Shown here piece by piece: positions 20,320-22,624 of a stretch of 41,085 nucleotides of DNA (position 1 is the stretch's first letter; the number at the start of each line of letters is the position of its first letter). This stretch comes from Acidobacteriota bacterium (GTDB lineage: Bacteria; Acidobacteriota; Vicinamibacteria; Vicinamibacterales; 2-12-FULL-66-21): positions 18,406 through 59,490 of the forward strand of contig QHWT01000098.1 in assembly GCA_003222675.1 (NCBI GenBank), read 5' to 3'. The notes beneath the pieces were generated by a model. It searched no databases and had not been told where the DNA came from. It saw only the letters and a list, made by a program, of their open reading frames with translations. A program made the position numbers and the translations under genes.

Positions 20320-20338
20320 TCGGGACAGCTTACTAAAA

Positions 20339-20456
20339 ATTGGGTAATTGAGTAATTGGGTAATTGGGTAATCGGGTGAGCCGATACTTGCCGACGCAAT
20401 CACCACATCACCAAATCCCAAATTTCCCGATTCCCCAATTCCCCAATTACCAAATA
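20339..20456. repeat. Facing octamer arrays in the blaI-ligD divergent promoter region
   Basis: The left array has five units of type ATTGGGTA (20339-20378). The right array has six units of type CCCCAATT (20409-20456), which are near reverse complements of the left ones. About 30 unrelated bases lie between them. The arrangement forms a large imperfect inverted structure between the divergent starts at 20319 and 20468. It is strikingly AT-rich and may contain the promoters of both genes. Confidence 0.85.
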
Positions 20457-20467
20457 GTCTTACCTGC

Positions 20468-22624
20468 ATGGACCTCCGACCGATGCTGGCGACGCTGGCC
20501 GATGCGCCGCATGTCGACAAGAACCTCGTGTACGAACCGAAATACGACGGCATTCGGGCGCTCGTTGAGATCAGCCCGTCACGTGGCGCACCGATCGTGC
20601 ACATCTGGTCTCGCAACGGCAATGACAAGACGATGCAGTTCCCTTCGATTGTGGAGGCCCTCCGCAAGGCGGCGATGAAGCTGAGCGGGAAAGTAATCCT
20701 CGATGGTGAGATCGTCGCCTTGCACCCTGACGGGCGTCCCGCCGGCTTTCAGCGCCTCCAGGGACGCATTCACCTCACGGGTGCGCAGGACGTAGAGCGC
20801 ATCGATCGCGATCAGCCCGTCGCGCTGATCGCTTTCGATCTGCTGCGCGAGGGCAACGACGATCTGTGCAAGCTGCCGCTGACCGAACGTCGCAAGCGAC
20901 TGGAGGCGTTATTTGAAGACATCCGCCTGAAGGCGGAAGGAACACTCAGACTGAGCGAGCAGGTCGCCGGGGACGGGCGCACGTTATATGCGCGCGCGCT
21001 GAAGGAGCAGTGGGAGGGACTGATCGCAAAAGATGCCACGTCCCTCTATCAGCCCGGACGCCGATCGCCGGCATGGCGGAAGATCAAAGTTGTGCAGGAA
21101 CAGGAATTCGTCGTGGGCGGATGGACGGAACCGCGCCAGACACGGTCGTATTTCGGCGCGTTGCTGCTTGGCGTCTACGAAGGTGACGACTTTGTTTATG
21201 TCGGCCACACGGGGACCGGCTTCAATCAAAAGGAGCTCGAACGCGTGTCGCGGTTGCTCAAATCACGCGAAATTCCGGCATCTCCATTTTCAACGGCGAT
21301 CAAGACCAACGAGCCGGCGCACTGGACGCGTCCGGATCTCGTCGCCCAGATTAAATTCACGGAGTGGACCGCGGACGACAAGCTGCGGCATCCGGTCTAT
21401 CTCGGGCTGCGCGATGACAAGAATCCGCGCGAGGTCGTGCGGGAACGCGCAAGCGACCCATCTTCCGCATCAAGGCGGAAGCCACATGAGCCGCACACTG
21501 CCGGGTCACGCGAGCCGCGCGCCTCTGATCCTTTGCCTGTGGCGTCTACCCGCCACTCCAGTCGAGTGACTTCCGCTTCCCATTCCAACCGAGTGGCTTC
21601 CGCTCCCCACTCCAACCCTGTGGCTTCCGCTTTCAGGCGGGAGGATCTGGCCAACCTCGTCAATCAACTCCGCGCGCTCGAAGACGCGCGACGCGATGGC
21701 GAGCTGACCCTCCCGAACGGCGATCGGGTGAAGGTCACCAACCTCGCGAAGCTGTTCTGGCCCGATCTCGAGATCACCAAAGGCGACCTGCTCCGTTACT
21801 ACGTCGAGGTCTCCCCATTCATCCTGCCGGCCGTCGCGGATCGTCCGCTCGTGATGAAGCGATTTCCGAATGGCGTTGGCGGCAAAGCCTTTTACCAGCA
21901 GCGCTCGCGCGAAGAAAGGCCTCCTGCTGGCGTCAGAATCGAGACGCTTCCGGACGAAAGCGATCCAATCAGTGAGCCCGATGCGAAGCGGCTCGTCGGC
22001 GGATCGCTGACGACCCTGTTGTACATGACGCAGATCGCCGCGATCTCGCAGGACCCGTGGTTCTCGCGCGTGCAGTCGCCGCTCGACGCGGATCACGTTG
22101 CCCTCGATCTCGATCCGACCGAGCACGCGACGTTCGCCAAAGTACTCGACGTCGCCCGATGGGTGCGCGACGAGCTCGTTTCGCTCGGCGTCCCTGCCGT
22201 CCCGAAGACATCGGGGTCGAGCGGCTTGCACGTCTACATTCCGTTGCCGCCACACACGACGTACGAGTCCGGCGTGCTCTTCTGCCAGATTGTTGCGACC
22301 GTTGTCGCATCGCGCCATCCGAAAGTCGCGACGGTTGAGCGCATGGTCGCGCGGCGGCCGCGCGGCACCGTTTACATCGACTTCCTGCAGAACATCCTTG
22401 GCAAGACGCTCGCCACTGCTTACAGCGCGCGCGCGAGCGAGTTCGCCGGCGTCTCGACACCGCTGACGTGGAAGGAAATGGATGGAAAGGTCGACCCGCG
22501 CGACTTTACGATCCGCACGGCGCCGGAACGATTTCGAAAAACTGGCGATCTCTGGGAAAGGCTGCGGACCGCGAAGCCCGCGAACCTGGAAGTGGTTTTC
22601 AAGAAGTACGCGAAGCAGCGGTGA
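20468..22624 (+). CDS. ligD: DNA ligase D: ATP-dependent ligase plus primase-polymerase
   Basis: The protein has 718 residues and acts with Ku in double-strand break repair. Residues 1-320 are the ligase. The adenylation motif is YEPKYDGIRA, and other motifs are DGEIVAL, EGLIAKD and WRKIKVV; the C-terminal OB part includes FVYVGHTGTGF. Residues 420-715 are the archaeo-eukaryotic primase-like polymerase with TNLAKLFWP, the metal-binding block DHVALDLDP, and SGSSGLHVYIPL. The phosphoesterase domain found in Pseudomonas LigD is absent. The linker (about 330-400) is a Ser/His/Arg-rich insertion made of in-frame repeats. A palindrome also lies in the ligase domain at residues IRLKAEGT. The 3' end overlaps the convergent dehydrogenase gene by 26 bases. 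It appears intact. Confidence 0.93.
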   Translation: MDLRPMLATLADAPHVDKNLVYEPKYDGIRALVEISPSRGAPIVHIWSRNGNDKTMQFPSIVEALRKAAMKLSGKVILDGEIVALHPDGRPAGFQRLQGRIHLTGAQDVERIDRDQPVALIAFDLLREGNDDLCKLPLTERRKRLEALFEDIRLKAEGTLRLSEQVAGDGRTLYARALKEQWEGLIAKDATSLYQPGRRSPAWRKIKVVQEQEFVVGGWTEPRQTRSYFGALLLGVYEGDDFVYVGHTGTGFNQKELERVSRLLKSREIPASPFSTAIKTNEPAHWTRPDLVAQIKFTEWTADDKLRHPVYLGLRDDKNPREVVRERASDPSSASRRKPHEPHTAGSREPRASDPLPVASTRHSSRVTSASHSNRVASAPHSNPVASAFRREDLANLVNQLRALEDARRDGELTLPNGDRVKVTNLAKLFWPDLEITKGDLLRYYVEVSPFILPAVADRPLVMKRFPNGVGGKAFYQQRSREERPPAGVRIETLPDESDPISEPDAKRLVGGSLTTLLYMTQIAAISQDPWFSRVQSPLDADHVALDLDPTEHATFAKVLDVARWVRDELVSLGVPAVPKTSGSSGLHVYIPLPPHTTYESGVLFCQIVATVVASRHPKVATVERMVARRPRGTVYIDFLQNILGKTLATAYSARASEFAGVSTPLTWKEMDGKVDPRDFTIRTAPERFRKTGDLWERLRTAKPANLEVVFKKYAKQR
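20922..20937. repeat. Perfect 7-bp-stem palindrome in ligD (translates as RLKAE)
   Basis: The sequence TCCGCCTGAAGGCGGA has seven-base arms around GA. In the ligD frame it encodes IRLKAEG at about residue 152. The same palindrome core with flanking CTT/GAAG is the hallmark of the repeat family at 6626-6691 and 21459-21645. The surrounding protein sequence (FEDIRLKAEGTLRLSEQV) is compatible with a short in-frame insertion just before the conserved LRLSEQV block. Confidence 0.7.
21459..21645. repeat. Palindromic and 27-base repeats inserted in frame in the ligD linker
   Basis: A hairpin CTTCCGC-ATCAAG-GCGGAAG lies at about 21462-21481. At 21564-21644 three 27-base direct repeats follow, each built around GTGGCTTCCGC or GTGACTTCCGC. 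They encode nine-residue units beginning VTSASHSN, VASAPHSN and VASAFRRE. The antisense strand reads RLKAEATG and GAEATRLEW. All insertions preserve the ligD reading frame and fall between the ligase and polymerase domains. Confidence 0.82.

Follow-up and report, generated by a model that had tools for sequence, protein, structure and literature searches.

In-frame copies of a GTGG-tagged REP hairpin family in LigD and other proteins of an acidobacterial genome

The gene for LigD carried by the DNA stretch analysed here (the window: 41,085 nucleotides, C141:18406-59490 of a 7.16 Mb, 152-contig genome that is 99.9% complete) contains palindromes that are translated as part of the protein. The question raised by this locus is what these palindromes are and how a coding sequence came to contain them. 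An earlier note, made from the DNA letters, had likened them to the Rickettsia palindromic elements and had placed all copies lying inside genes at domain borders. Neither proposal agrees with the results described below: the LigD palindromes are copies of an element with the consensus GTGG-CTTCCGCC-TTCA-GGCGGAAG, which constitutes a GTGG-tagged REP family within the GTAG superfamily rather than a Rickettsia-type element.

The features of the locus are collected in Table 1. In LigD the Pfam domains DNA_ligase_A_M, DNA_ligase_A_C and LigD_Prim-Pol span residues 5-207, 226-318 and 437-696, respectively. The sequence TCCGCCTGAAGGCGGA at 20922-20937, which had been described as a perfect palindrome, is indeed translated in the ligD frame as I-R-L-K-A-E-G, but it consists of two 7-base arms and two unpaired bases. 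It belongs to REP copy 1, whose in-frame peptide DIRLKAEGT (about residues 151-159) is located in a loop within the adenylation domain rather than at a domain border. Copies inside domains were also found in TruA, a Na/H antiporter, an ABC ATPase (presumably between the signature motif and Walker B) and an AMP-ligase. Both the hairpin and the three 27-base repeats expected in the interdomain linker are present, together with a further hairpin. The repeats are 70-75% alike and run into this further hairpin; repeats 2 and 3 start with GTG(A/G)CTTCCGC, the 5' half of the REP. The 27-nt unit had no other match at up to five mismatches in the 1.18 Mb sampled (see below). Outside ligD, the 66-base palindrome claimed for positions 6626-6691 does contain the same core and does lie between called genes, but it proved to consist of two hairpin units that form an imperfect inverted pair, with a DNA folding energy of -19.5 kcal/mol (z -5.5).

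Table 1. Position of ligD and of the REP-related features in the window
Feature	Position	Strand	Basis or remark
Intergenic head-to-head REP pair	6630..6687	units 6630-6653 + and 6664-6687 -	between called genes
ligD, ATP-dependent DNA ligase + primase-polymerase (LIG-POL order), host gene	20468..22624	+	Pfam; orthologues in same order
REP copy 1, degenerate tag	20920..20943	-	16-nt core exact; 3 mismatches to tagged consensus
LigD linker insert, one tail-to-tail REP pair	21462..21643		spacing 158 nt
REP copy 2, left arm of the pair	21462..21485	-	peptide SSASRRKPH
Three 27-nt direct repeats, 9-residue units, in the pair spacer	21539..21619	+	starts 21539/21566/21593
REP copy 3, right arm of the pair with copy 2	21620..21643	+	peptide VASAFRRE

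The palindromes of LigD belong to a family of 24-base hairpins with well over a hundred members throughout the genome. A search of the whole genome for the tagged element (up to two mismatches, two stem pairs left free in the pattern) gave 81 + 93 matches on the forward and reverse strands versus 0 + 1 for the reversed control, and the 16-nt core was matched 123 + 121 times at up to one mismatch versus 5 + 3 times for its reversed control. These counts bear out the earlier proposal of a palindromic family that is spread over the genome, has in-frame copies in genes and is present well above background. The window itself has 22 core matches at up to three mismatches, some of them counted on both strands, compared with a mean of 6.5 (sd 2.9) in 100 shuffles. 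For a census, 60 stretches (about 1.14 Mb) picked around 84 exact-core sites, of which 83 were covered and one (C38:12320) was omitted, were combined with the window to a sample of 1.18 Mb; because the stretches were picked in this way, degenerate copies elsewhere are under-sampled. This sample contained 131 sites at up to six mismatches, whereas the control had none at up to five and three at six. With another pattern, 118 unique copies were obtained after removal of palindromes counted on both strands. When 113 copies (up to four mismatches) were aligned, a sharp 24-nt unit, GTGGCTTCCGCC-TTCA-GGCGGAAG, was obtained, with sharp edges, low conservation outside them and a weak TCTC before the tag. 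The tag is GTGG in 91 and GTAG in three of the 118 copies. On the basis of the reversed-pattern and shuffle controls, a chance origin was ruled out. A known structured RNA was likewise ruled out, as Rfam gathering scores detected only four tRNAs in the window.

Each hairpin is made up of the 4-base tag, a 9-bp stem and a short centre, and occurs singly or as an inverted pair. Two stem pairs vary among the 118 copies. Pair 9/18 is GC in 105 copies, AT in nine, a GT wobble in one and unpaired in three; pair 10/17 is CG in 103, GC in nine, a TG wobble in three and unpaired in three. Compensatory changes (GC to AT and CG to GC) were thus found in nine copies at each pair, which points to selection on the hairpin rather than on the peptide. 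Of 36 neighbouring REPs within 250 bp of each other 34 were inverted: 23 were tail-to-tail (tags inside), 11 head-to-head, and two were in tandem. The head-to-head spacers were 19-20 nt long and similar in three of the 11 pairs (L125, L135 and L159), in which a GCC-stem unit is joined to a GGC-stem unit.

The copies were then assigned to genes with a home-made gene caller whose starts are approximate, a copy being regarded as internal if at least 20 codons from either gene end. By this definition 78 of the 118 copies are intergenic, 27 are internal (in 21 genes), five lie at the N-end, four at the C-end and four at an edge of a gene; copies called at the gene start in L146, L148 and L157 are probably upstream of the gene. 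At 82% coding density of the 1.18 Mb sample, 97 copies would be expected in coding sequence, and 36 were observed. By the pattern that gave 131 sites (up to six mismatches), 40 of these are inside genes. Genes hosting a REP include uvrA, truA and those for an AMP-ligase/acyltransferase, a Na/H antiporter, an ABC ATPase, a penicillin-binding protein and an IMS-family polymerase. Four genes besides ligD (L119, L160, L166 and L171) have a pair with both units read through.

The internal copies are distributed over the six possible frames as 8, 5, 5, 4, 4 and 1. The frame used only once is closed by a stop in 104 of the 118 copies; its user is the LigD copy at 21462, where the usual TGA or TAA is changed to TCA; one further frame has a stop in 29 of the 118. 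Depending on frame and strand, the element encodes LPPEGGSH, FRLKAEAT, GFRLQAE, VASAFRRK or WLPPSGGR. FRLKAEAT and its kin recur in several proteins, as the note had proposed for RLKAEAT-like peptides. One could suppose that such peptides are useful motifs, for instance flexible linkers or binding sites, and that their DNA is alike through codon choice. Related peptides (VRLKPDTT, SSLSRT) in the LigD linkers of other genera (G116, G413) would fit this explanation. It appears extremely improbable, however, when it is considered that the five peptides listed above are unrelated to each other and come from several frames and both strands, that two thirds of the sampled copies are intergenic, and that what is conserved is the DNA hairpin.

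The intergenic copies are not evenly placed: they occupy 21 convergent and six divergent gaps, whereas all gaps of at least 40 bases comprise 106 convergent and 116 divergent ones (p 0.004). Moreover, the 3' ends of some genes are formed by a copy. Both observations could be taken to mean that the hairpins act in RNA, as terminators or as stabilisers of mRNA, that they spread for this function and that they fell into genes by accident. We consider this very unlikely, since it leaves whole pairs inside genes and the flanks of transposase genes (see below) unexplained, and a like bias in intergenic position has been reported for REPs (PMC3733652). A secondary role of the REPs in the host is nevertheless compatible with the mobile-element explanation that we prefer.

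If the internal copies are insertions, the corresponding segments should be missing from relatives. Comparison with 11 other genomes of the same family showed that the TruA segment is missing in all eight relatives (66 residues in the compared part versus 57-62), the antiporter segment in both full relatives (66 versus 54 and 55) and the UvrA segment in five of eight (66 versus 54-58); L330, aligned over 11 residues only, was left out of these counts. The UvrA site varies anyway, because the relatives L343, L348 and L349 have their own inserts there (65, 70 and 79 residues). Compared with solved structures, TruA has nine extra residues at the REP segment (1dj0) and UvrA about 13 (2r6f). In an AlphaFold model of TruA (8-row alignment, mean pLDDT 85) the segment is placed in the turn of a beta-hairpin formed by strands 167-176 and 189-198, and residues 181-190 have a mean pLDDT of 63. 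The AMP-ligase was not counted among the proteins with a missing segment, as the length at the site ranges from 47 to 77 residues in relatives. Its gene in G397 (L350) contains a perfect in-frame REP pair (IFRLKAEAT...GFRLQAED) where the window's own genome has a single copy, and the gene of G348 has a possible decayed copy at the same site. The spacer of the L350 pair is itself a tandem repeat and seems to have been expanded in frame, as in LigD.

The expectation of clean in-frame insertions, supported by TruA, the antiporter and most UvrA relatives, was not borne out for LigD copy 1: a clean insertion is not demonstrated there, since the loop in question varies among relatives and is in this protein only about three residues longer than is typical. 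Of 50 ligD loci taken, own included, 49 were aligned (L091, without a usable frame, was left out), and the linker differs in every one of them, often being made of other repeats. The linker is therefore anything but conserved among orthologues, and its length proves little by itself; the REP in it is recognised by its DNA. The linker of G116 contains an exact GTCCGGCTGAAGCCGGAC palindrome (VRLKPDTT), which is another stem of the same kind as GTGG-CTTCCGCC, as well as decayed ones, and the linker of G413 contains decayed palindromes of the GTCCGGCTGAAGCCGGAC type. Taking into account these other stems and the variation throughout, the LigD linker looks like a free landing zone. Further relatives (L075, L092, L095) have linkers with EPGTRN-like, GAKGAKG and GSKGSKG repeats. 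It may be that the LigD linkers of this order generally collect repeat DNA.

Outside the window's own genome the family is patchy. The core TCCGCCTNAAGGCGGA was found in 57 of 162 genomes of the order, with up to 201 copies, whereas the control gave at most one match per genome. GGCTTCCGCCTNNAGGCGGA reaches high numbers in only two of 396 genomes across the phylum, the own genome (62 + 74) and G355 (10 + 15, with one mismatch in the places listed). The exact element was present in at least 95 stretches (genome contigs); 79 of the 80 loci listed (L172-L251) are in three MAGs titled Acidobacteria (QHWR, JACQTH and JABFWM). The window's genome is accordingly probably that of an acidobacterium, and the Vicinamibacteria named in the note are a plausible placement.

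Genes for Y1_Tnp transposases are common in the order (104 of 162 genomes). They include a RAYT-like clade with DHVH (HUH), WQ and Y...NP motifs, which is flanked by GTAG/GTGG-tagged CT..AG palindromes at 20 of 30 loci (the best matches, one per genome), with two or more palindromes at 15 and none at the other ten. Such palindromes were found at one of 33 loci of other Y1 transposases. These 33 are the loci, out of 52 Y1_Tnp loci, with an ORF found by motif; the 19 left out are nine clade members with tagged hairpins (L294 and L305, which are the same gene, L297, L299, L306, L307, L310, L313 and L315), the clade loci L281 and L290, and eight loci without an ORF by motif (L267-L274). The clade (E <= 1e-20) occurs in 18 of 22 REP-rich genomes versus 35 of 140 others (p 4.7e-7, uncorrected for relatedness; REP-rich means ten or more copies, a threshold chosen after the counts had been seen). 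The genomes of this comparison (22, 140 and 53) were counted by hand.

In G415 a clade transposase has exact TCCGCCTTCAGGCGGA copies on both sides, and in G404, which is of the same genus as the window's genome, the clade gene lies beside tagged palindromes with a different stem. A RAYT-like gene flanked by REPs is present in relatives, in G415 with the same core. In the own genome none was found, and the REP-flanked clade gave no match at E <= 1e-6 there or in G397, both of which are core-rich. The own Y1 transposases L031 and L032 were considered as cognate enzymes and rejected: both fall into other clades, and the surrounding DNA (within about 1.5 kb) contains no element at up to six mismatches. 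This distinguishes the genome from known systems in which TnpAREP/RAYT lies beside the REP, although a cognate RAYT, while frequent, may be missing (PMC3733652).

The assignment to the GTAG superfamily follows from the tagged hairpin, the inverted pairs and the RAYT-like transposases associated with palindromes of the same centre. As in GTAG REPs, including GTAG-20 of O. terrae (Di Nocera et al. 2013, PMC3733652), the element is a short, tagged, high-copy hairpin with a maintained stem, it forms head-to-head and tail-to-tail dimers, it is mostly extragenic and it is biased to gene 3' ends. GTGG, a variant tag, has been reported as the majority form in one known family; O. terrae belongs to another phylum (Verrucomicrobia). 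Stems of GTAG REPs are mostly 6-9 bp long in that paper, and here 9 bp; the comparison with its 24 listed families covers tag and structure. The inverted pairs with short spacers also resemble REPINs, which are inverted REP doublets (PMC3116915). REPINs, however, have been described in extragenic space, whereas here whole pairs are also read in frame, in LigD, the four further genes mentioned above and the AMP-ligase of G397. The motifs of the transposase clade and its flanking tagged palindromes in relatives are those of TnpAREP/RAYT (PMC8266576, PMC6006769), and by motif the clade resembles subclasses 2.5 and 2.7.

The resemblance to the Rickettsia elements, a lineage-specific selfish palindrome specialised in coding genes, lies in the many proteins that carry palindromes in frame and in the tolerant loops in which these are located. 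Nevertheless, such an origin has very little probability here. Two thirds of the sampled copies are intergenic (see above), and the tag, the short hairpin, the dimer types and the transposase flanks are traits of GTAG REPs. The intragenic RPE-4 and RPE-6 of R. conorii have been assigned to the CGTC repeats, which that study found to lack a transposase partner, the longer RPE-1 not being assigned there (PMC3733652). Membership among the RPEs was rejected because the tag is mostly GTGG and not CGTC and because transposase flanks are present.

In kind, the phenomenon is already known: in-frame intragenic GTAG REPs, single and paired, were described in 2013, among other places in genes for UvrA, a DNA ligase and a tRNA pseudouridine synthase, which match hosts found here, and a GTGG-tagged family was reported as well (PMC3733652). 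Thousands of REPs have been predicted in three Acidobacteriota genomes (RepRanger paper, PMC12306157). In the available literature on REPIN/RAYT in Acidobacteriota no description of a GTGG-CTTCCGCC family was found, and the peptide strings and a 20-mer of the element had no match in the literature searched. New here are the occurrence of such a family in this order, the extent to which it has entered genes, and the LigD linker as a site that has been used repeatedly.

These results make it very likely that GTAG-superfamily REPs were spread by a RAYT-type transposase and that the copies inside genes are the tolerated remainder, their peptides being passengers. The transposase, now lost or unrecognised in the own genome, would copy or move the hairpin as single-stranded DNA, as work on TnpAREP suggests (PMC8266576). 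Hairpins would have been inserted in many places and, inside genes, would have survived only where the frame was kept and the site was a loop or linker. The in-frame copies are best seen as such survivors because of the depletion in genes (36 versus 97), the loop or linker position wherever this was tested and the near absence of the stop-containing frame. In LigD, a REP pair may have landed in the free linker, its spacer being subsequently expanded by tandem duplication of the 27-nt unit built on the 5' half of the REP, and copy 1 would be a lone REP tolerated by a loop of the ligase domain. The encoded peptides are most likely without function of their own.

A more far-reaching version can be considered, in which several REP stem families keep supplying, across the order, new peptides to the loops and linkers of housekeeping and repair proteins, with the LigD linker struck independently in different genera, the REPs as main driver of linker evolution and some of the inserts selected. 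Two sites speak in its favour: the LigD linker, which has GTGG-CTTCCGCC here, GTCCGGCTGAAGCCGGAC in G116 and a decayed form of the latter in G413, and the loop of the AMP-ligase, which has a single copy in one genus and an in-frame pair in another. We nevertheless regard this version as rather unlikely.

If the peptides are indeed passengers of the spread hairpins, recurrent strings such as FRLKAEAT, VASAFRRK, LPPEGGSH and their kin in the predicted proteins of this order are translated mobile hairpins, which bears on annotation, domain finding and homology searches. The natural in-frame insertions, several of them missing from relatives, provide a map of insertion-tolerant loops in TruA, UvrA, the antiporter and LigD. 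To the known REP/transposase systems, the genome adds a REP-rich case without a recognisable cognate enzyme.

Four DHVH-clade transposases (L399, L383, L387 and L372) are accompanied by stems that differ by genome but share a CTTYAG-type centre and a GTAG or GTGG tag; they constitute a natural series for the study of co-evolution between enzyme and hairpin. The exact element was also detected in L215 (VFYY01000047.1), a MAG titled Acidimicrobiia, whose transposase places are those of G476, a genome of the window's order; the title of this MAG is probably wrong. The IMS-family polymerase gene (L163:316-2088) has, in addition to a REP, a C-terminal region that is long and repetitive and in which peptides (PQATEPGC) are duplicated; this may be a repeat expansion of its own. 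Finally, the intergenic DNA upstream of ligD (20338-20460) contains a repeat other than the REP, AATTGGGTAATTGGGTAA, whose inverted arm is some tens of bases off and which has 12 + 8 matches in the genome at up to one mismatch versus none for the control.
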